From a virus: DNA of 23,382 nucleotides. Position 1 is the first letter of the stretch, and the number at the start of each line of letters is the position of its first letter. The notes under the pieces were generated by a model. That model made no database searches. It was given only the letters and a program-made list of their open reading frames with translations, and had not been told where the DNA came from. Positions 1,230 to 23,382 of the stretch are shown here, in pieces. The position numbers and the translations under genes were made by a program. The stretch lies in the IMG/VR virus record IMGVR_UViG_3300006916_000402, positions 1 through 23,382 of that record; one strand, 5' to 3'.

Positions 1230-2595
1230 GTTTGTCTGGTCCCCGCAGGTGGGGCCACAGGCGATGGCGATCATGTCAGGTGAGGCCATAGACGAGCTGT
1301 TCTATGGTGGCGCAGCCGGCGGGGGGAAGTCCGATTTCTTACTGGCTGATGCTGTGCAGGACGTCGATCAGGGCAGCGACTGGATAGGCATCATTTTTCG
1401 CCGGCATACGACGGACATGGACGAGCTGATCCACCGGTCAATGGAGATTTACGGCCCGATGGGAGGCGAGTATAAGGTCGGCATTCGGACGTGGAGGTTC
1501 CCGGGTGGAGCAGAGATCAGGCTGAGGCACATGGATACTGACGCGGACTTTATGAAGTATATGGGCCACAGCTACGCGTTCATCGGCTGGGATGAGCTGC
1601 CGACGTGGGACAGCTTGCGACCCTATCAGATGATGAAGTCGCGCCTGCGCGGGCCGGCACAGCATAAGCGAATACGGGCTACAGGCAACCCCGGCGGCAG
1701 GTGTCACGGTGAGGTCAAAAGATACTTCGCTATCGACAAATACCCAGACGGCTACGTGCCGCTACTCGACAAAGAGTCTAAAATGGTGCGCTGCTTCATC
1801 CCAGCGCGCGTGCAGGACAACCGTGCACTGCTTGACGCTGACCCAGACTACCCGAACAGGTTGATGGGTATGGGCGATCCTGAGCTGACGGCAGCGTATC
1901 TGGATGGCAACTGGGACGTTAGCCTCGGCGCTATGTTTTCTGCTATGCGCAACGATCTGCTGGTCGACCCATTTGAAGTGCCAGAAAACTGGCCGTTGTT
2001 CATGGCAATGGACTACGGGGAGAATAATCCTACGGCTGCGGTCTTGCTGGCTGTAGACTACGACGATGACGTGTGGGTGGTCAGTAGCTACTACTCGTCG
2101 GGAGCAGGAGCGGAGCACGCTCAGGGCATCGGAGCAATGATAGACGAGTGCAGGTACACGTCCATCGGCGGCGCGTATGGCCGGCAACCACGGTTGCTCT
2201 TAGCGCCCGGGGATATGTGGACAAGGCGTGCTCCGGGAGACGTATCGCAAGCACGTGCACCGGTCGACACGTTCCGGGACCACGGGCTGACGCTGTCGAA
2301 GGCGAACATGGACCGTGTCAATGGATGGCGGAACATAGCTAATTTGCTATACGCTGGCCGGCTAAAGTTTTTCCGTGGATCGACCGAGCGTGTAGTCGAC
2401 AGCTTGCTGAGTCTGCAGCGCGAATCGCGCAACCCAGAGGACGCAAGCAGCGGCGACGACCACGGGGCCGACGCGCTGCGCTACGGAATAAACCACGTCT
2501 ACAAGGCGCGCAAAGTCGAGGATAGACCACTCAACGATGGTGGCCGGCTGATAGACCAGCTCGCCGACGATTTGATAGAGAGCAGATACGGATGA
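1210..2595 (+). CDS. terL: terminase large subunit (packaging ATPase and nuclease)
   Basis: The 461-residue protein has all the landmarks of a large terminase. The Walker A loop is GGAAGGGKS at residues 33-41. Walker B is YAFIGWDE at 122-129, with D128 and catalytic E129. The coupling motif is ATGNPGG at 157-163. The C-terminal RNase H-like nuclease has acidic residues at D268 (in FMAMDYG), D335 (in LLLAPGD) and D417/D421 (in SGDDHGADALRYG). The ATPase drives DNA into the prohead through the portal and the nuclease cuts the concatemer. The length is normal for the compact class. The ATG at 1210 overlaps the end of terS and the stop overlaps the portal start (ATGA), so the three proteins are probably translationally coupled. 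No motif is missing. Confidence 0.97.
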   Translation: MTVGQTKFVWSPQVGPQAMAIMSGEAIDELFYGGAAGGGKSDFLLADAVQDVDQGSDWIGIIFRRHTTDMDELIHRSMEIYGPMGGEYKVGIRTWRFPGGAEIRLRHMDTDADFMKYMGHSYAFIGWDELPTWDSLRPYQMMKSRLRGPAQHKRIRATGNPGGRCHGEVKRYFAIDKYPDGYVPLLDKESKMVRCFIPARVQDNRALLDADPDYPNRLMGMGDPELTAAYLDGNWDVSLGAMFSAMRNDLLVDPFEVPENWPLFMAMDYGENNPTAAVLLAVDYDDDVWVVSSYYSSGAGAEHAQGIGAMIDECRYTSIGGAYGRQPRLLLAPGDMWTRRAPGDVSQARAPVDTFRDHGLTLSKANMDRVNGWRNIANLLYAGRLKFFRGSTERVVDSLLSLQRESRNPEDASSGDDHGADALRYGINHVYKARKVEDRPLNDGGRLIDQLADDLIESRYG

Positions 2596-4706
2596 ATAAG
2601 TACGAGATATCGTGGTATAAAGCAGAAGGAGAAATGCTGGACTCGTTGTATCGGGACCGGCAGGAGAGCTGGCAAAAGCTTTACGATTCATACGAGCTTA
2701 AGTTCGACGAGAAGATACGCGACCTGCGCGCTGAAGACGTCGTGAAGGTCAGCCGGTTTTACCCCATTGTCCGACAGATACTGGGTAGCATTGCCCACAA
2801 CTACCCGGTCATGTCGTTCAATGTAGAAGACGAGGTCAACGCCGACGTAGCGCCCATTCTGGAGCGCGCTGCCGGCAGCTATATGGAGATCACGTCGCTG
2901 AAGAGCCACGTCCATCAGGCCATATTCGACGCGCTCTTCTGTGGCGTTGGCTGGATTCGACTTGACTACAACCCACCCGGGGACGACTTCATTGCCCCCT
3001 ACACGACCAACGACGACTTCGCAGAGGATATGGTGGTCTGCCAGCGCGTTGCCCCCGGTTACGTGCATCTGGACCCCACGGGTAGCCCGCACCGACTGGG
3101 TGACAAGCGATACATCCGCGAGAAGTTTTGGACCCCGATGCAATATTTGCTCGACGACCCGCGCATTCAAAACAAAAAGCAAATCAAGCCGACCCAGTTG
3201 TCACGCGAAGACGAGGTAGGCTACGGCGAGGTGATGGGCGAACGCTACGACGGCCCAGAGCAGGAGGCCCTGCGCGAGTCAATCAGCAACGGCGACTTTG
3301 TGTTGGTGGAGCGGTGGCACAACCGCATGGAACGCCGCGAGGTGATGTTCGTGCCGGGCGTCGACCAGCCTATACTGGACGTCCCGCACCCATTCCGCAA
3401 GATGACGTTCCCGCAGGTAACAGACCTGCTGGGCCAGCCCGTATTCGACATAGACGACGTGACTGGTGAGCCGACAGAGCCCGTGCTGAATTTGCAAGGT
3501 GGTGAGGAGTCGTCCGGGTGGCTGGTGGAGCAGGGCTTTCCGTTTGTCGCTATCAAGTTCGATTTGGCGCAGGAGAGCTTCTACCCGCTGGGACATCTCA
3601 AATATTTAGAAGACATACAAAACAGCATCATTGAGCAGGTCAGCCGCGTATCAGACCTACTTAAGCGCACGTCGCGCATGACTGCGATACGTAACAGCGA
3701 GCTGGAAAGCAACCCAGAGATCGGCGACGTAATGCGCACTGGACGCGACGGCGAGTTTGTGGGCGTCGAGGATCTCAACAACATACGCGAGCTTAACTGG
3801 GGCAACGTCCCGGTCGACGTGTATAACTTCTCCAGCATGATGATGGGTATGGAGCGCGAGATCGCCGCACTTGCGCCACCGCAGGCCGGCCAGTCGGAGA
3901 CGGCAACGGAAGCGGCTGTCGTCGCTGCCGCTGCGCAGGTCAACGGCAACTGGATGGAGGCAGCGGTAAATACTTTCTACGAGACTATCGTGCGCAATGC
4001 GTTTCAAATCATGGGCGATCCGAGGTATACGCCAGAGTCGTTCGTTGAAAACATAGCACCAAACGGGGAGCAGCGAGTCGTGCGCGCACTGAGGACGTCA
4101 GACTTTTTATATACGTATCGCATAGAAACAAAAACGGGCTCAACGCAGCCACTATACGAGCAGCTTGAGCGCGACCGCACGATGGCGTTTGTAGCGTGGG
4201 CAGGCAACCGTCCAAACTACGACCAGCTTGAGGTAGACAAGCTCGCCGCCATTGCGCATGGCGTGCAGGACGTGGAGCGCGTGCTGCAGGATCAGGACAA
4301 CGTGGAGGCGCAGAGGGCGGCACAATACGAAAACGACCGCGTAATGACGGGCGAGCAGATAGAGGTGCTACCACAGCAAGACCACGCAGCGCATCTGGGC
4401 GTGCACTCACTATTCAGAGAGCATCCGACCTTTATACAACTCAACCAACAAGCGCAGGCCACGGACCTGACTGGCAACCCTGCCAACCCGCAAGCGGCAC
4501 AGTTCATCGCACAGATCGAACAAGCTATGGGCCAGCACATGCAGCAGCACGAGCAGGCAGCGCAGAATTCCCAGCAGGGAGAAACCGCGCCCAGCGCGCC
4601 GGCAGGAGCAGCGCAGGCTGCGCAAAACCAGCCTGATTTAATCTCGCAAGTGCAGTCCAATGCACAGCGTACATCCGACGTAATTTCCGCACAGACGCAG
4701 GGTTGA
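2592..4706 (+). CDS. portal protein (P22-like head-tail connector ring)
   Basis: The 704-residue protein starts at the ATGA overlap with terL. Its size is close to P22 gp1 (725 residues), far longer than the 400-500 residues of siphovirus portals. The N-terminus (WQKLYDSYELKFDEKIRDLR, then FYPIVRQILGSIAHNYP) and the later GYVHLDP and KYLEDIQNSIIEQVSRVSDLLKRTS segments match what I know of P22-like portals of aquatic podoviruses. The long stem helices precede a Gln/Ala-rich disordered tail from about residue 615, which would lie in the barrel or crown region. It forms a dodecameric ring through which DNA enters and leaves. Position right after terL and before scaffold and capsid supports the call. 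Confidence 0.95.
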   Translation: MNKYEISWYKAEGEMLDSLYRDRQESWQKLYDSYELKFDEKIRDLRAEDVVKVSRFYPIVRQILGSIAHNYPVMSFNVEDEVNADVAPILERAAGSYMEITSLKSHVHQAIFDALFCGVGWIRLDYNPPGDDFIAPYTTNDDFAEDMVVCQRVAPGYVHLDPTGSPHRLGDKRYIREKFWTPMQYLLDDPRIQNKKQIKPTQLSREDEVGYGEVMGERYDGPEQEALRESISNGDFVLVERWHNRMERREVMFVPGVDQPILDVPHPFRKMTFPQVTDLLGQPVFDIDDVTGEPTEPVLNLQGGEESSGWLVEQGFPFVAIKFDLAQESFYPLGHLKYLEDIQNSIIEQVSRVSDLLKRTSRMTAIRNSELESNPEIGDVMRTGRDGEFVGVEDLNNIRELNWGNVPVDVYNFSSMMMGMEREIAALAPPQAGQSETATEAAVVAAAAQVNGNWMEAAVNTFYETIVRNAFQIMGDPRYTPESFVENIAPNGEQRVVRALRTSDFLYTYRIETKTGSTQPLYEQLERDRTMAFVAWAGNRPNYDQLEVDKLAAIAHGVQDVERVLQDQDNVEAQRAAQYENDRVMTGEQIEVLPQQDHAAHLGVHSLFREHPTFIQLNQQAQATDLTGNPANPQAAQFIAQIEQAMGQHMQQHEQAAQNSQQGETAPSAPAGAAQAAQNQPDLISQVQSNAQRTSDVISAQTQG

Positions 4707-7699
4707 TGAATATCAATAGAGCATATCCCCCAACATTTAGCGGTGCTGGGCAGGGAGCGTATCAAGAATTAGATCCAGAGACGCGTGAAATACTGCAGGC
4801 GCTGCTGACTAAGTCGCCCGGCGGTATGTTGCAGACCACAATGGATACAGCGTCGGACATCGGCAACGTGTTAGGGTCTATAGGACAGCTGGACAAAGCA
4901 GAAGCACTGGGACGGCAGGTTCGACGCACGCTGCCCAATATTGTAGACGCGGTGTCTTCTGACGTCGGCGGCACGTATGATGCAATGAAAGAAGCGTTAA
5001 AGGAGGGCGTGCTGGAACGCGGGTTGGGCGCTGTGATGGGTATAGAAGATGTGGCAATACCCGGGTTCGGTATGATGTCAAAGTTGGGCGCAGCCGGCAC
5101 TGCGCTGGGTATGGCTGCTACGCCAATAGGTAAACGCACGCGAGAGCAACTGATAGAAGAGATTTTGAATCAGCCTACGCAATCAGCGGCAAACAAAGTA
5201 GGCAGGTCGGCAATAGAGCAAGAGGGCTATGATCCTGATATAGTCGATGCGCTGCGGGAGAAGCGGGATAAATCAATATTTGAGAAAACTGAAAGTTTAA
5301 GCTCTGGCAAAGAAAATCCTGCAGCAATTCGCAGAGAAAAAATGCGCGGCAATCCTGAGTTCAAACAGAGGTTGCCGCAAGAAGTAAAAGGCGAAACCAT
5401 TGCCACGCCATTGGATATCAGTCAGCGCGAAATAGTGCAACCCGAGTCGATGGTTGGCAACGTCGCCATCGGCGTTCCCGGCGACAGGTCCGCGCGCACG
5501 CGCATTGAACAACTGGGTGGCGTAAAGTTAGACGAGCCGATAGATGTGCAGGGAGGGCCGACGTATGGTTTCGGCAGGGATGATTTTTCGTGGGCGTCAA
5601 ACTATGGCATAGCGCGAGGCAAACAAAACCACGTAATAACGGCAAGTGAAGCCACTGGACTGCCCGTGCTCGGCATATATACAGCAATGGGCGAAGGCGC
5701 TGTAGACTTTTCTACGCCTGTCGTAGAGTTGCTAATGGGGCAGTTGAATACAATTAGAGTGCCGGCTGCAGCAAGAAAAAAATTAGATCAAAAAATTAAT
5801 GAAGCTATAAAGACGGTAAATAAGCAACGCATTGCTGAAGGTGTGAAAAAAGGTAGACCCGTAGAGGTTATTGAAGACAGCTTGCTTGACGAGTTTTTGG
5901 GCATAGATCACCCAGAGGCGATGGCTCAGTTGTTAGGGACAACAGGCGCATCGGGTAAAGAATACAGAAGGTTTGGCTCGGGCGACCTACGCAAGGTGGT
6001 TGTACAAACAATAGCGCGAGAGGATATGCGCGGTCTGGGCTTTCCCAGCTACAAAGATGCGGCCTACCAAATGACGGAGCCCGAATTGCGGTCTGTGCAG
6101 CGTGGCGATACGGGCGGCGCCATCCTCCGCATGGACCCAGACGCAACACTGCGTGATCCTGACGCCCCGCCAGATGCCGGCCACAGATCCTACGATACGG
6201 GCATACCGGGGCAATATCAAGGCGTCATGGAGCGGGTTGATATACCCGCGCCTATTATGTTTCCAAAAACGTTTGATAGATACCGGACGTTAAAAACTAA
6301 AGAAGGCAATCCTATGGAGCTGCATTCCCAAATGGGCAAGTTCCATATGGGTGCAGACTTTGAGGTGTTAGACCAGCAGTGGCTTGACGGCGTTCGCAGC
6401 TACATGGAGCGCAAGGGCATCACGGATTTGGGTGGTGTGCCTACGCTCGCGTTTCTCTTGCTGGGAGCCGGCGGGCTCAACGCGATGGCAAGCGACGATC
6501 CTGAGATGCAGGCAGCAGGCGGCGCAATGATGGGCGCAGCGGCTATGGGGGGTGCGCCAAAGTTTATCAAGCAAGCGGCGACGGGTGCAAGAAACGCAAA
6601 GAAGCTACGAGAGCAGCAGTTAAAAGAATTTGAAGACTTCGACTATCCTGACGCTGAAGAGTCTATAAGGACACAGATAACTACTACAAAGCCCACGTAC
6701 ATCAAAGCCAATCAATATCTGGATGACCAGCAAGCCGTCGGCAAGACGTTGGACTACGGAGCCGGCTTAGGGTTTTCCAAAGAGATGCTGGGCTACGATA
6801 TGTTTGAGCCAAACACGGCAAGGGGCGAAGCGCTCGGTGTGAAGTACGACTTCACAGATTCCAAAGTCATACCAGACAATCAATACGAGCGTGTTGTCAA
6901 CTTGAACGTGCTCAACGTCGTCAGTCCGCAAGTCAGAGACTTTATAGTCGAAGATATAGCGCGCGTGATGAAGCCGGGCGGCAGTGCGATTATCACGACC
7001 AGAGGGCGAGATGTATTGAACGCGAAAGGGACGCCCGGACCTGAGCCGATGTCGCTTGTCACGTCAACCGGCACGTATCAGAAAGGGTTTACCAACCCAG
7101 AGCTAAAGGAATACATAGAGACGGTGCTGGGGGAAGGCTATGACGTAAAAAGTATAAGCCTCGGTGGAGCCGGCGTTTATGTAAAAAAAAAATCTAATCA
7201 GGTAGACATTGCTACGCAGGCTTCAAGCGGTGTGCGAGTGCCTATGCCTGACAAACAGTTAGGAGTCGGTAAAAAAGTCGGATACGATTACTATGTGCAT
7301 AAATCAGCAGAAGACGTTATCCCTACCGATGTATTGTTAAAGGCAAAAGGAAAAGTTGGTGACTTTGAATACGATATAGTCAAATACAACAACAAGGATA
7401 ATTCGATAAGTTTTATAGAAAGCCCAGATTTTGACATAGCAGACGAACCTACTGTAGGGAAATCCATAAAAGTGGGCGCAGATGGTCAAGTATCCAGTCC
7501 CAGAAAAGGTGGGGTGACTGTATATCACCATAAATGGAATATGGTGAGGCCAGATTACATGGGTTTTGATTATCAGGATGCTATTGAAAGGTCAGTACGG
7601 TGGACGCAAAAGCTTGAAGGTACTGGAATAAATCGTAACAAAATAGGCAACAAAAATTATTGGGAAACTGTAATAATCCCCATGCTAAACAATGAGTAA
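4706..7699 (+). CDS. large multidomain virion-associated protein with methyltransferase-like domain (MuF-slot polyvalent protein)
   Basis: I place the start at ATG 4706, which overlaps the portal stop (TGATG); a TTG three bases earlier is possible. The 997 residues divide into: a helical N-terminus (about 1-160); a conserved-looking segment (about 240-400) with VQGGPTYGFG (from about 280), FSWASNYG and PVLGIYTAMG...DFSTPV; a hydrophobic Gly/Ala stretch (578-620) beginning GGVPTLAFLLLGAGG; a class I SAM-methyltransferase-like domain (about 660-829) with motif I LDYGAGLG (D683-G689), VVNLNVLNVV (730-739) and MKPGGSAIITTRG (from 755); and a C-terminal domain (about 830-997) with YYVHKSAEDV, FIESPDFD and YHHKW. 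It has no (D/N)PP(Y/F) motif, so it is not an ordinary DNA methylase. Its place between portal and scaffold is the MuF slot, suggesting packaging in the virion and delivery into the host. Substrate unknown. Confidence 0.8.
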   Translation: MNINRAYPPTFSGAGQGAYQELDPETREILQALLTKSPGGMLQTTMDTASDIGNVLGSIGQLDKAEALGRQVRRTLPNIVDAVSSDVGGTYDAMKEALKEGVLERGLGAVMGIEDVAIPGFGMMSKLGAAGTALGMAATPIGKRTREQLIEEILNQPTQSAANKVGRSAIEQEGYDPDIVDALREKRDKSIFEKTESLSSGKENPAAIRREKMRGNPEFKQRLPQEVKGETIATPLDISQREIVQPESMVGNVAIGVPGDRSARTRIEQLGGVKLDEPIDVQGGPTYGFGRDDFSWASNYGIARGKQNHVITASEATGLPVLGIYTAMGEGAVDFSTPVVELLMGQLNTIRVPAAARKKLDQKINEAIKTVNKQRIAEGVKKGRPVEVIEDSLLDEFLGIDHPEAMAQLLGTTGASGKEYRRFGSGDLRKVVVQTIAREDMRGLGFPSYKDAAYQMTEPELRSVQRGDTGGAILRMDPDATLRDPDAPPDAGHRSYDTGIPGQYQGVMERVDIPAPIMFPKTFDRYRTLKTKEGNPMELHSQMGKFHMGADFEVLDQQWLDGVRSYMERKGITDLGGVPTLAFLLLGAGGLNAMASDDPEMQAAGGAMMGAAAMGGAPKFIKQAATGARNAKKLREQQLKEFEDFDYPDAEESIRTQITTTKPTYIKANQYLDDQQAVGKTLDYGAGLGFSKEMLGYDMFEPNTARGEALGVKYDFTDSKVIPDNQYERVVNLNVLNVVSPQVRDFIVEDIARVMKPGGSAIITTRGRDVLNAKGTPGPEPMSLVTSTGTYQKGFTNPELKEYIETVLGEGYDVKSISLGGAGVYVKKKSNQVDIATQASSGVRVPMPDKQLGVGKKVGYDYYVHKSAEDVIPTDVLLKAKGKVGDFEYDIVKYNNKDNSISFIESPDFDIADEPTVGKSIKVGADGQVSSPRKGGVTVYHHKWNMVRPDYMGFDYQDAIERSVRWTQKLEGTGINRNKIGNKNYWETVIIPMLNNE
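6671..7192 (+). other. class I SAM-methyltransferase-like domain within the 997-aa protein
   Basis: The domain runs from about residue 656 to K829. The glycine-rich SAM loop is DYGAGLG. The strand-4 equivalent is ERVVNLNVLNVV, helix and loop before strand 5 are IARVMKPGG, and the last strand is GAGVYVKKK. The NVLNV signature followed by KPGG resembles methyltransferase domains I know inside large phage polyvalent proteins. The acidic residue expected after strand 2 is plausibly D697 in MLGYDMFEP. Substrate cannot be read from the sequence. Confidence 0.75.
7183..7192 (+). other. ten-A tract at the end of the methyltransferase domain
   Basis: Ten consecutive A residues encode K827-K829 directly after the last predicted strand of the methyltransferase domain. 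If one A is added or re-read, TAA follows at 7195-7197. If one A is lost or skipped, TAG follows at 7203-7205. Slippage of RNA polymerase or the ribosome here would release the protein just after the methyltransferase domain. Whether this happens is unknown. Confidence 0.5.
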
Positions 7700-8208: not shown

Positions 8209-8277
8209 ACCAGCCGTGCGGGGTTGGTAGGAGTGCCGCACCACTCCTACGACGCCCTGTGCGGCTGGTTTTTTATT
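8209..8277 (+). terminator. forked rho-independent terminator-like structure
   Basis: The outer stem pairs ACCAGCCG (8209-8216) with CGGCTGGT (8262-8269), followed by TTTTTTATT (8269-8277). Nested inside is a second perfect 9-bp stem, GTAGGAGTG (8227-8235) with CACTCCTAC (8242-8250), closing a six-base loop. A T-tract directly after the 3' arm of the outer stem makes intrinsic termination likely. It separates the packaging block from the capsid block, and no obvious -35/-10 promoter is visible in 8169-8289. Confidence 0.75.
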
Positions 8278-8283
8278 AGGGAG
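8278..8283 (+). promoter_or_regulatory. ribosome-binding site (AGGGAG) for the scaffold gene
   Basis: AGGGAG lies six bases before ATG 8290 and decides that start. An in-frame GTG at 8224, 66 bases earlier, would put the coding region through the terminator hairpin. Confidence 0.75.
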
Positions 8284-8289
8284 CAGAAT

Positions 8290-9228
8290 ATGTCTGAGAT
8301 TGCCGTGGACTCTGGAGTGGAGTCGGGGCAGACCGATAGTGGCCCATCGTCAGGATCTGCAGAGACCTCATCGCGGGACAGTATGCCCGAGATGGGACTG
8401 GGGATGCTTGAGGTGGATACTCCATCATCGGACCCTGAGCCAGCGACGGAGCAGACCAACGACGACTCAACTCAACAGCGTGCCGAAACAAGCGGCACAC
8501 AACAAACAAACAACGATAACCTATCTGAGTTTGAAAAAGGAAGGCGAGAAGCAGACCGCTACTTCCAACAGGGCAACCAGCGTCTCTTAGACGAGCGTAA
8601 AGCCTTTGAAGAAGAGCGAGCGAAATGGCAGGCTGAACGGCAGCAGCAACCGGCGCAGAATGTAGGAGCAGAGGCGCTCGGTGATGCAGGCACGTTGCGT
8701 GAACGCGCGATGCAGGTCGACGACCCGCAGCAACAACGCGCGCTTATGGAACAAGCAGCTGGTATAGAGTATGTCAATAAACTGGTCGAAGAGCAGATCC
8801 AGCAGCGTATGCAAAGTATGGGGCTGGAAAACTACGATCAGGACAGACAACTCATGCAGTCTCTTGTGCAACAGCAGCGACAGCAGCGCGAAAGCGAGCT
8901 TCTGCAGCAGATTGAAGAAGCAAAGTCATTGCTGGGCGAGCAGACGCTTACAGACCCGTTGACGCTACAGTTCATTACCAACAACCGTGGAATGTTGGAC
9001 GTGCAGAATCCTGACACGGGCAAGAATTTCACGTTGAGCGAGTTGGTAAGCAGATGGACTGGCCGGCAGGCAGAGGACGCAAGCAGGGCGCGGCAAGAGC
9101 AGCGCGCGCAGCGGAACGTCGCAAAGCAGTCGGCAGTAGGGCGCGGCAACGGGGCCACCGTGCGAGACAGTGGTGGTGGAGCCATCAGCAAGTCGGCAGC
9201 AATCGCTGAAATCGGACAGACGATGTGA
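8290..9228 (+). CDS. scaffolding protein
   Basis: The 312-residue protein begins at ATG 8290 with a good ribosome-binding site. Residues 1-75 are acidic, Ser/Thr/Pro/Gln-rich and probably disordered. Residues about 78-120 (FEKGRREADRYFQQGNQRLL, ERKAFEEERAKWQAERQQQ) and 165-215 (VEEQIQQRMQSMG, QQQRQQRESELLQQIEEAKS) are strongly coiled-coil. The last 55 residues are basic, with SRWTGRQAEDASRARQEQRA, reminiscent of the positively charged coat-binding end of P22 gp8. Length, composition and position immediately before the major capsid gene make this the assembly scaffold, which shapes the prohead and then leaves. There is no protease gene nearby, so exit or reuse rather than cleavage is likely. 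Sequence families of scaffolds diverge quickly, so the call relies on composition and context. Confidence 0.88.
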   Translation: MSEIAVDSGVESGQTDSGPSSGSAETSSRDSMPEMGLGMLEVDTPSSDPEPATEQTNDDSTQQRAETSGTQQTNNDNLSEFEKGRREADRYFQQGNQRLLDERKAFEEERAKWQAERQQQPAQNVGAEALGDAGTLRERAMQVDDPQQQRALMEQAAGIEYVNKLVEEQIQQRMQSMGLENYDQDRQLMQSLVQQQRQQRESELLQQIEEAKSLLGEQTLTDPLTLQFITNNRGMLDVQNPDTGKNFTLSELVSRWTGRQAEDASRARQEQRAQRNVAKQSAVGRGNGATVRDSGGGAISKSAAIAEIGQTM

Positions 9229-9249: not shown

Positions 9250-10233
9250 ATGGCACAGACCACTTCAGAAACATGGGATAGTCGCTGGTCGTCAACGCGA
9301 CGCACGATTGATCCCGAAGTAATTTCGAACATCTTTGAACCCTATAACGTCATCGACGCGCTTCGCAAGCGTGGTATGCAGATGGTCGACGGTGGGGGTA
9401 AGGAAATTCAGGTCATTCTTGAAACCAGCGCCGGCACTGCTGAAGCGTTCGACAAGTATGATCCCCTAAGCAAGTCGCCCCGCGATCCGTTTGAGTCGGC
9501 TTTCTACAAGCGTCGTTACTACGCCGTCCCCGTGATCCTTTCGGACACTGAGGACTGGGAAAACAGCGGTCCCGAGCAGGTCTTTGACCTACTCTCGGCG
9601 CTGGGTGACAATGCCATGAACAGCCTCCTCAAGACGATCAACGAGGACGCCTGTGGTGCGCAGTCTGGCAAGTCTATGTTGGGCCTGCAGGATCTTATTG
9701 CAGACGCAGGCACAGGCACCGTTGGCGGCATTAACTCAGCCACGAGCACCTACTGGCAAAACCAGAAGGACACGACGGCCACCACGTTTTTGACGCAGAC
9801 GACCACAAACATCTTCGACGGTATCACGCGCTTTAACGCGGTCATGGATGCCGTGCGCAAGCAGGGCGGTCGCACCGATGCCATCTTCACCACCTACAGC
9901 ATCGCCGGCGCGTATCGCGTCGCGTTGACGTCGCAGGGTTACGTGGAGATTTCTGGTAGCGCCATTAACGGGCTGAAGGGGCAGGAGTTCCCGAGCTTCA
10001 TGGGAGCCAAAGTCGTAGCTGACGAAGACATCTCAGCTAACCACGCCTACTTTGTCGACAAGCGTGCGCATCAGTTGCGCGTCATGCGTAACGCAAACTT
10101 CAAGAAGACTCCGTTTGTATCGTTGCAGTCGAACGGTCAGCTTGCCCAGTTGTCCTACATGGTCGCCGGTGTGCAGCAGATTACGAACAACCGCCGTCGT
10201 CTCGGCGTGGCAACTAACATCACTGGAATCTAA
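9250..10233 (+). CDS. major capsid protein (HK97 fold)
   Basis: The 327-residue protein has the composition and landmarks of HK97-fold coats. There is an N-terminal helical region. Next is FESAFYKRRYYAVPVILSD followed by TEDWENSG (about 81-105), the usual pattern of the E-loop and spine helix (compare xKxYxVxIxISxxExxxNSG). Then come LGDNAMNSLLKTINEDACG, a GLQDLI loop, a central domain with GGRTDAIFTTYSI, and a C-terminal HAYFVDKRAHQLRV strand pair. It has no delta domain or prohead protease, consistent with a separate scaffold. It is shorter than the P22 coat (430 residues), closer to the compact coats of podoviruses that use a cement protein, and such a candidate follows. GAGG at 9239-9242 is a good ribosome-binding site. 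High expression is expected. Confidence 0.95.
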   Translation: MAQTTSETWDSRWSSTRRTIDPEVISNIFEPYNVIDALRKRGMQMVDGGGKEIQVILETSAGTAEAFDKYDPLSKSPRDPFESAFYKRRYYAVPVILSDTEDWENSGPEQVFDLLSALGDNAMNSLLKTINEDACGAQSGKSMLGLQDLIADAGTGTVGGINSATSTYWQNQKDTTATTFLTQTTTNIFDGITRFNAVMDAVRKQGGRTDAIFTTYSIAGAYRVALTSQGYVEISGSAINGLKGQEFPSFMGAKVVADEDISANHAYFVDKRAHQLRVMRNANFKKTPFVSLQSNGQLAQLSYMVAGVQQITNNRRRLGVATNITGI

Positions 10234-20865: not shown

Positions 20866-23382
20866 ATGAATCTTACAGCACTAAAGAGTTGGGTGAGCGG
20901 AGAGACACTAACCGCTGCGGACCTCAACGCTGAATTTCAAAACATATACACGCACACAATCAACAATAGCGACATAGACAGCACGGCGTCGTATGTGTTG
21001 GGTGAGCTGGTCATTGGAACCGGACTGGCTGCGGCAGACGGCGGGCAGTTGCACGTTCACACGGGATCTGCCGGCACAGTGCAGGCGGCGTCGGATGCAG
21101 ACGAGGCTGTGTTTGAAAACAGCACGGCGTCAGGTATAACGATCCTTTCGGGTGGCTCCAGTACGGGCAAGATTGCGTTTGGTGATTCTGGCGATAACGA
21201 CGTTGGTCTTATCACATACAACCACGCAACAAACGCGCTTACCCTCGGGACAAACGGCACTACAGCATTAACGCTATCATCAGCACAGGCAGCAACGTTT
21301 GCCGGCGATGTAAGTGTCGGCGGCACACTGACGCTAACGGGTGGCATAACGCTCAACGGTAATACTACCATTGGTGACTCTAGTGCCGACACCCTCACGG
21401 TCAACAGCACCATCACCAGCAACCTCATATTCACGGATGCGACCTACGACATTGGCGCGAGTGGTGCTACACGCCCCCGTGACCTCTTTCTAAGCCGCAA
21501 TGCAGTGATGGGCGGCACATTGGGCGTTACGGGCCTCATCACGGCCTCTGGTGGCGTAAGCGGTGCGTTGACAGGGAACGTAACTGGCAATCTTACGGGT
21601 AACGTCACTGGCGATGTCACGGGAAATATCAGCGGCAACGTCACAGGCGGCACGATCAGCGGCACAACGGCAACCTTAACAGGCGCACTCACAGGCACTA
21701 CGGGAACATTCAGCGGCTTAATCTCTGGCAACGGTGGAGCAGAAATAGGAAGCAACACCGCAAAGGTTAAATTTTATTCTGACTCCACTTACAGCGGAAT
21801 TTATAACGGCTCATCATTAACCTCAGACGAGTCGTATTATTTCGGCAACGGAGACCATTTTTGGTATAGTGACGGTTCTGTGGCGATGAAATTGGACAGC
21901 AGCATCGTCGGCATAGGCACATCATCTCCAAGCACTTACTCTTTTAATAATGACGCAAGGTTAGTAGTCGCTAATACCAGTGCAAACTCTACTATAACGA
22001 TTGCGAGCGGAACGAGTAGTAGCGGCTATTTAGCGTTTGCTGATGGCACCACAGGCACCGACCGCTACAGCGGTCAAGTCCAATATAATCATAGCACCAA
22101 CACAATGTCATTTAAAACGGGTGGCGGCGTTGAGGCTATGACGATCAATTCAGCGCAAGACCTCGCCGTCGACGGCGACACTCTATATATCGACGCTAGT
22201 GCAGATCGCGTCGGCATCAATACGAGTTCGCCAGACAGTGTTTTACATCTATATAAAAGTGGTTCGCTGGCTCAATTGAAAATAGAGGCAAATGGTGTAG
22301 CTAATCCCAGATTGGCACTGTATAACAATTTGACGTATGCCTCGCAAATAACTTACACCAACGATTTGCAAGTTTATGGCAATGGTGGGAGTAATCTTCA
22401 TCTTGTTTTAGACTCGTCTGGCTATTTGGGATTGGGAACCAATAATCCAACAGGTCTGATGAATTTAATGGCCGATGGTGCTACGCCGTTTACGGGTGTG
22501 TCAGACGTTCTGTTAGACATAAAACGAGGAGTTACAAATACAGGTAGTGGCAATGCAACGGCAATCCGATTAGGCAATAACAGCAACGGTTTCAAAATTT
22601 CCTACGGTGGAGCCGCTGACCATTTGCAATTTATTGATGGCGGTAATTCGGCAATTATGACGTTAGTCAATGCCAATAATAACGTCGGCATTGGCACGGA
22701 ATCGCCAGCGTGTCGCACTCATATCCGTGAAAGCACTTTAAGTGGGTTTACGCCAGACAACAATACGAACCTTGCAGTCGAGGAAAACAGCACCTCATTG
22801 ATTGAGATCGCAGGGACGGATTCTGGGATTCTGTTCAGCGATGCAACTGCGTGGGCAGGGCGCATATTCTACACGCACAGCACTGATCAAATGGCCTTTG
22901 CTACAGCGCAGTCGAACAAAATGTATCTCGACTCGTCTGGCAATCTGCTTGTGGGTAAAACAACTACCTCAGCCGCTACTGCGGGCGCGAGTATATCTTC
23001 TACTGGCGCTGCCACCTTTGTTAGAGATTCCGATTGTTTGCTGTTAAATAGGCCGTCAACAACAGGGACTATTGCGGCTTTTAGACAAGCGAACACGGAA
23101 GTCGGAACGATCAGCGTTACTGCGTCTACAACTTCCTATAACACCACCTCTGACTACCGTTTGAAAGAAAATGTAGTAGGCATCACAGACGGCATCACGC
23201 GCATCAAATCGCTCAAACCCTCACGTTTTAATTTCATATCAAACGCTGATCAAACAGTTGACGGGTTTGTGGCGCATGAGGTGTCTGACATTGTGCCAGA
23301 AGCTATTACTGGCGAGAAAGATGCTGTGGACGATGAGGGCAACCCAGAGTATCAAGGCATCGACCAGAGCAAGCTGGTACCG
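20866..23382 (+). CDS. tail fibre with C-terminal S74 intramolecular chaperone (3' end outside window)
   Basis: The frame is open from ATG 20866 to the window edge (839 codons). The N-terminus MNLTALKSWVSGETLTAADL, then NAEFQNIYTH, is a common fibre anchor of aquatic phages. The shaft is Gly/Thr/Ser/Asn-rich, with six TGNV-type units (residues 236-259) and four V/L-G-I/L-G/N-T-x-x-P motifs at about 348, 449, 521 and 607, plus DSSGNLLVGKT. From about residue 760 the S74 peptidase domain begins with TSDYRLKENV. S762 and K767 have the five-residue Ser-Lys spacing of the endosialidase-type self-cleaving chaperone. It continues with RFNF, DGFVAHEV and YQGIDQSKLVP. The chaperone trimerises the fibre and cuts itself off. 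About the last 20-60 residues are missing. The fibre should bind the receptor. Confidence 0.93.
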   Translation, partial: MNLTALKSWVSGETLTAADLNAEFQNIYTHTINNSDIDSTASYVLGELVIGTGLAAADGGQLHVHTGSAGTVQAASDADEAVFENSTASGITILSGGSSTGKIAFGDSGDNDVGLITYNHATNALTLGTNGTTALTLSSAQAATFAGDVSVGGTLTLTGGITLNGNTTIGDSSADTLTVNSTITSNLIFTDATYDIGASGATRPRDLFLSRNAVMGGTLGVTGLITASGGVSGALTGNVTGNLTGNVTGDVTGNISGNVTGGTISGTTATLTGALTGTTGTFSGLISGNGGAEIGSNTAKVKFYSDSTYSGIYNGSSLTSDESYYFGNGDHFWYSDGSVAMKLDSSIVGIGTSSPSTYSFNNDARLVVANTSANSTITIASGTSSSGYLAFADGTTGTDRYSGQVQYNHSTNTMSFKTGGGVEAMTINSAQDLAVDGDTLYIDASADRVGINTSSPDSVLHLYKSGSLAQLKIEANGVANPRLALYNNLTYASQITYTNDLQVYGNGGSNLHLVLDSSGYLGLGTNNPTGLMNLMADGATPFTGVSDVLLDIKRGVTNTGSGNATAIRLGNNSNGFKISYGGAADHLQFIDGGNSAIMTLVNANNNVGIGTESPACRTHIRESTLSGFTPDNNTNLAVEENSTSLIEIAGTDSGILFSDATAWAGRIFYTHSTDQMAFATAQSNKMYLDSSGNLLVGKTTTSAATAGASISSTGAATFVRDSDCLLLNRPSTTGTIAAFRQANTEVGTISVTASTTSYNTTSDYRLKENVVGITDGITRIKSLKPSRFNFISNADQTVDGFVAHEVSDIVPEAITGEKDAVDDEGNPEYQGIDQSKLVP
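21571..21642 (+). repeat. six tandem 12-bp units encoding TGNV-type tetrapeptides
   Basis: Consecutive tetrapeptides TGNV, TGNL, TGNV, TGDV, TGNI and SGNV are encoded in six 12-base units within the fibre shaft. Such TGN(V/L) runs are typical of beta-helical fibre shafts and can change copy number by slippage. Confidence 0.85.
23149..23166 (+). other. predicted self-cleavage site of the fibre chaperone (Ser762-Lys767)
   Basis: The codons encode SDYRLK. In endosialidase-type S74 domains the Ser and Lys of S-D-x-R-L-K form the catalytic dyad, and cleavage occurs at the Ser. Both residues are present, so the domain should be active. Confidence 0.8.

Follow-up and report, generated by a model that had tools for sequence, protein, structure and literature searches.

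A methyltransferase and partner domain related to a DNA phosphorothioation-associated family, in a multidomain protein encoded between viral portal and scaffold-size genes

What a methyltransferase is doing among viral head genes is the question raised by one gene in the 23,382 nt of DNA analysed here (the window; positions 1 to 23,382 of IMG/VR virus record IMGVR_UViG_3300006916_000402). The open reading frame at 4706–7699, which like all features described below lies on the + strand, encodes a multidomain protein of 997 aa. Its ATG overlaps the stop codon of the upstream gene at 4704–4706, and its 3′ end overlaps the next gene at 7692. The upstream gene (2592–4706) encodes a portal (P22_portal, 1.4e-6; phrog_156 portal, 2.6e-7), and downstream are a gene assigned to the scaffold by position (8224–9228), for which Pfam, NCBIfam and PHROG gave no family match, and the gene for the major capsid protein (9250–10233; NF033394 podovirus major capsid, 2.9e-51). 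Hence, the location between portal and scaffold given in a first-pass annotation of this DNA is confirmed by the reading frame, the P22-type portal and the capsid. The genes of the window that have family matches are head and tail genes, and dnd phosphorothioation genes are not among these. A search of the PADLOC anti-defence library returned no match.

On the evidence of its modelled structure, the region of residues 646–836 (6641–7213) is a class I SAM-dependent methyltransferase with an intact SAM-binding loop, LDYGAGLG (residues 682–689; 6749–6772), and is predicted to be catalytic. Pfam gave weak generic matches only (Methyltransf_11, 0.0065, below the cutoff). The AF2 model of residues 639–997, built with 60 aligned sequences from the window and contigs, has a pLDDT of 92.9 and a pTM of 0.63, so that the placement of the methyltransferase and the C-terminal domain relative to one another is uncertain. 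Foldseek found 619 PDB matches at E≤0.001, the best (8.9e-9) being the SAM-dependent methyltransferase 3h2b, and the top 50 matches listed are overwhelmingly SAM-dependent methyltransferases. The fold had been predicted earlier from the SAM loop and an NVLNV motif, with loss of the Rossmann fold or of the SAM pocket named as the contrary outcome; a Rossmann-like methyltransferase fold with the pocket loop intact was what we obtained, and NVLNV is present within NLNVLNVV (residues ~732–739). This last stretch occupies the motif IV position, and the (D/N)PP(Y/F) motif is absent, as had been noted. A DNA N-methyltransferase was considered and rejected on this ground. Substrates of the best PDB relatives are small molecules, lipids (phospholipid), tRNA (METTL6) or protein N-termini. 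When 40 diverse proteins carrying the domain were compared, the SAM loop, an E-P after strand 2, NLNVLNVV, TTRG and TYQKGF were invariant or nearly so, and comparison of the methyltransferase codons with those of a sister virus (L003) gave a dN of 0.041 and a dS of 0.52. The domain is under purifying selection.

The C-terminal domain (residues 851–990; 7256–7675), hereafter the partner domain, carries the motifs YVH, SPDFD, EP, HHKW, DY.GFD and KIG...W and matches phrog_16075 (4.7e-16); a sequence search of solved structures found no match to it. When the two regions were scanned separately, the best NCBIfam match of the methyltransferase (4.6e-4) and the sole family match of the C-terminal region (5.3e-4) were to the same family, TIGR04096 (dnd_rel_methyl, DNA phosphorothioation-associated putative methyltransferase). 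The whole protein matches this family at 1.3e-7 with 30.7 bits and does not reach the curated cutoff of 150. A tblastn search with the C-terminal domain alone recovered TIGR04096-annotated proteins on plasmids of Microvirga, Picosynechococcus and a Rhodobacteraceae strain, and the bacterial members used for comparison were drawn from plasmids. A TIGR04096 search of two genomes and controls gave no match anywhere, the controls included. HHalign comparison with three bacterial members gave 97.8–98.3 % for the methyltransferase and 98.1–99.1 % for the partner domain, against 0.1–0.3 % for decoys made from mismatched or reversed profiles. Judged from these profiles, residues 646–836 and 851–990 are a two-part unit, both halves of which are homologous to TIGR04096.

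The features held in common include, in the methyltransferase, the signature TFQKxYTQxEL (in the window protein TGTYQKGFT, residues 788–796; 7067–7093), the glycine-rich SAM loop and NxxxxNV, and, in the partner domain, YxH, DFD, P and H-K. However, the three bacterial proteins (649–686 aa) consist of an N-terminal partner domain, the methyltransferase, a middle region and a degenerate second partner copy, which stands out best in Picosynechococcus; the clearest copy overall is the N-terminal one. In contrast, the phage unit runs from methyltransferase to partner, is without the middle region and differs in its N-terminal cap (TQ..T..TY); after strand 2 it has Glu where the bacterial proteins have Asp, and it is encoded in a head operon and not with dnd genes. 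Because of the bit score (30.7 against 150), the missing middle region and the other domain order, it is a divergent relative of TIGR04096 and not a full member. The RhodoSC52 (Rhodobacteraceae) member adjoins a cysteine desulfurase gene and is near a gene of the PAPS-reductase family, which is a dnd-like setting. As both halves belong with TIGR04096, nucleic acid regains plausibility as a substrate even without (D/N)PP(Y/F), though our literature search found no functional study of TIGR04096 and the analogy thus settles neither a nucleic-acid nor another substrate.

The methyltransferase lies in the same protein as the partner domain, before or after it, or no more than a few genes away at 31 of 38 viral loci encoding the partner domain, a set that includes several near-duplicates and two records of this virus and represents perhaps twenty independent cases. 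One locus (L138) has the order found in the window, within 469 aa. By way of control, 14 loci found with another domain of the window protein, the N-domain described below, held neither the methyltransferase nor the partner domain. On the Photobacterium plasmid p1_508 (L145, 4576–6471), a methyltransferase of 210 aa and a partner domain protein of 180 aa are encoded by separate nearby genes, which suggests a non-phage two-gene version. In KVP40-like Vibrio phages (L008, 3938–4900, KVP40.0371; L020, 2935–3462), the HHKW partner domain is in a protein of its own and no recognisable methyltransferase was found beside it. A pattern search of genome contigs recovered only two relatives of the methyltransferase; hence, with the patterns used, this form of it looks essentially viral.

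The first-pass annotation counted at least three other regions in the protein, and these can be identified as an N-domain (residues 221–590), a hydrophobic segment (residues 575–596) and the partner domain. The N-terminal 210 residues match no known family. The N-domain (370 residues; 5366–6475), which ends in DQQWLD, was modelled by AF2 with a pLDDT of 82.6 and a pTM of 0.78 and appears to be a phage-only fold: a fold search of the PDB found no match, and the 17 BFVD matches at E≤0.001 are all phage proteins, nearly all of them uncharacterised. One match, from Flavobacterium phage elemoC (4.6e-6), bears the name 'structural protein'. The N-domain also occurs without the methyltransferase in other phages, and phage C72C1 encodes it separately, in a gene just upstream of the portal gene. 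The hydrophobic, Gly-rich segment (6428–6493) has a Kyte–Doolittle mean of 1.46 over 19 residues.

Though the protein was initially placed in the MuF slot, its likeness to the MuF-type minor head proteins (SPP1 gp7, Mu F), which are likewise encoded between portal and scaffold and can carry effector domains, is positional only. No match to the Pfam MuF domain (PF04233) was found at E≤1 and the N-terminal 210 residues match nothing; identification as a MuF minor head protein was therefore rejected. The other comparison made earlier, with phage polyvalent proteins, has held up better. Polyvalent proteins are described, in the portions of Iyer et al. 2017 (PMC5512222) drawn on here, as large multidomain proteins of head operons with interchangeable enzyme domains, and their packaging is argued there from the same kind of context. 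The window protein likewise combines several unrelated domains (N-domain, methyltransferase, partner domain) in a single protein encoded among late virion genes, next to those for portal and capsid. It contains no Pfam polyvalent domain; ART-PolyVal and LPD23 do occur in proteins homologous to it. The methylases named in those portions of PMC5512222 are DNA adenine methylases only (DarB-like, often with a SWI2/SNF2 helicase), and the present methyltransferase family was not seen among them.

Relatives of the methyltransferase are present at no fewer than 288 IMG/VR loci. The best 80 of these were fetched; they are the closest matches and lean to one marine podovirus group. The search for the domain in other portal–scaffold intervals, proposed in the first-pass annotation, found the order terL, portal-size gene, methyltransferase protein at 33 of the 39 loci with at least 4.5 kb of upstream DNA. 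The methyltransferase protein is commonly followed by a scaffold-size gene (~310 aa) and then the capsid gene, and among representatives compared with PHROG most upstream genes are portals (phrog_1216) and the capsid-position genes are major head proteins (phrog_267/283). The methyltransferases of CRP-3 gp36, CRP-738 gp40 (both HMO-2011-type roseophages) and L031 each share 55 % identity with that of the window, and those of Microcystis phage MJing1 and mycobacteriophage Myrna (gp97) share 44 and 42 %, respectively. BLASTP found no similarity between the portal, scaffold-position protein and capsid of the window and those of CRP-3 or L031.

As in the window, CRP-3 gp36, CRP-738 gp40 and Myrna gp97 are multidomain proteins encoded ahead of the capsid gene, but they lack the HHKW partner domain and have SleB, DUF7178 or a head-maturation protease instead. 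In Myrna and Bigswole, both mycobacteriophages, the methyltransferase is inside a protein of ~1,200–1,300 aa, the N-terminus of which is a head-maturation protease (phrog_18299, 1.7e-18 for Myrna and 3.9e-19 for Bigswole); its gene immediately precedes those for the minor coat protein and the capsid (Myrna gp98 is a minor coat protein; PMC7150772). In MJing1, it is a stand-alone gene of 231 aa directly after the portal-position gene, and small stand-alone versions without an obvious packaging signal were also found in L030, L041 and L087–L091. Portal-slot methyltransferases are mostly without the partner domain, which among the best 80 loci is found only in this virus's two records, and the partner is therefore dispensable in some cases. 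The simplest reading of this distribution is repeated transfer of a methyltransferase cassette into proteins made inside the prohead; the methyltransferase tree is too poorly resolved for dating or counting transfers.

Cassette exchange can be seen in the sister virus. The DNA of L003 is 89 % identical to the window up to 7191 and about 82 % identical from 7687, and between these points the stretch holding the partner domain (7192–7686) is replaced by a segment encoding an ART-PolyVal domain (2.9e-11). DNA similarity to L003 is lost in one more stretch, at 4813–5125 (residues ~36–140), so the 997 aa protein exchanges segments near both ends. A comparable exchange is found in the Bixzunavirus phages RoMag and Wally (L169, L170), whose proteins are ~80–94 % identical to that of Bigswole (L017) over the matched parts and have another domain in the position of the methyltransferase. 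In C1 mycobacteriophages, the head-maturation-protease protein has an internal position that holds either the methyltransferase or an unrelated domain of ~140 aa. Elsewhere, the domains fused to the methyltransferase are a SleB cell-wall hydrolase (CRP-3), a phage lysozyme (HTVC104P) and ART-PolyVal (L003), and other homologous proteins carry DUF7178 or LPD23. Within a head protein, the methyltransferase–partner unit has the character of an exchangeable effector cassette.

The reading that we prefer, with a probability of about 0.5, is that this is a multidomain polyvalent-type head protein that is packaged and ejected, and the methyltransferase–partner unit of which methylates a target in the new cell, probably blunting a defence. 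The protein would be incorporated, along with portal and scaffold, as the prohead forms and would leave the particle with the DNA, its hydrophobic segments possibly aiding membrane crossing. Packaging, ejection and action in the newly infected cell are all probable, and there is now better indirect support for packaging and for action in the new cell: in other phages the same methyltransferase is fused to SleB, lysozyme, ART-PolyVal and head-maturation-protease domains. Once inside, the unit would methylate its target, and the partner domain would recognise the substrate or hold it in position. A nucleic acid would be the most likely target, whether the genome of the entering phage or a host nucleic acid connected with defence, and the benefit would probably be the blunting of an intracellular defence in the first minutes of infection. 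The nucleic-acid substrate is the least certain step; a defence-related one is favoured because of the TIGR04096 link, and caution is needed because there is no DNA N-methyltransferase motif and the structural neighbours include small-molecule, tRNA and protein methyltransferases. Also counted against this reading are the stand-alone methyltransferase genes, the PDB relatives with substrates other than nucleic acid, the partner domain's absence from most relatives, and a literature search that found no virion proteomics for proteins bearing this methyltransferase.

If the protein is injected, it could instead reprogramme the host by methylating one of its proteins, lipids or small molecules, with no role against anti-DNA defences. 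T4 Alt is an injected, host-directed effector of this kind, acting by ADP-ribosylation. An ART-PolyVal segment stands in place of the partner domain in L003, motif IV of the DNA N-methyltransferases is absent and the PDB relatives include METTL6 and small-molecule, phospholipid and N-terminal protein methyltransferases, all of which fit a host-directed effector; the homologous bacterial family, however, is found in or near DNA-phosphorothioation loci (the RhodoSC52 member), and we regard this alternative as rather unlikely. Less likely again is an enzyme of the assembly stage, a structural or scaffold-associated head component whose methyltransferase acts on capsid proteins, or on DNA during its packaging, in the producing cell. 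The position among late head genes and the fusion to a head-maturation protease in mycobacteriophages would suit it, but close relatives of Bigswole swap the enzyme for another domain while keeping the head gene, and the methyltransferase co-occurs with ART and with host-entry enzymes (SleB, lysozyme). It is similarly improbable that the product is a late-expressed enzyme that is not packaged, its gene having been inserted by chance at a permissive spot in the head operon: though stand-alone versions occur elsewhere and the literature search yielded no virion proteomics, the slot recurs in phages whose portals and capsids are unrelated, and the fusions are to peptidoglycan hydrolase and head protease domains. 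A dead enzyme, with the fold kept for structure or binding only, is very hard to reconcile with a dN so far below dS and with the invariance or near-invariance, in the 40 proteins compared, of the SAM loop, NxLNV, QKGF and the acidic residue that follows strand 2.

Head proteins that bear effectors are already known, and a Dnd-associated-type methyltransferase with its partner in the head slot was not found in the literature searched. The domain is widespread (288 or more IMG/VR loci, HMO-2011-type marine phages among them, and mycobacteriophages) and unannotated in this slot, and it is tied to a bacterial defence-associated enzyme family. A bolder proposal, which we consider a long shot, is that many unrelated phages deliver in the particle a Dnd-type methyltransferase from the phosphorothioation world, which would modify the incoming genome or the host phosphorothioate-sensing machinery and so defeat Dnd/Ssp-like or other DNA-backbone defences. 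If true, this would be a virion-borne counter-defence with new chemistry, methyl transfer linked to phosphorothioation. Culturable carriers include Bigswole and Myrna (M. smegmatis) as well as the roseophages CRP-3 and CRP-738; with these, and with sister phages that have other domains at the same place, the role of an injected methyltransferase is directly testable. Knowing that role could also clarify the function of the Dnd-associated methyltransferase. At the far end of the window, 20866–23382 encodes a tail-fibre-like protein with a Peptidase_S74 intramolecular chaperone domain at its C-terminus.
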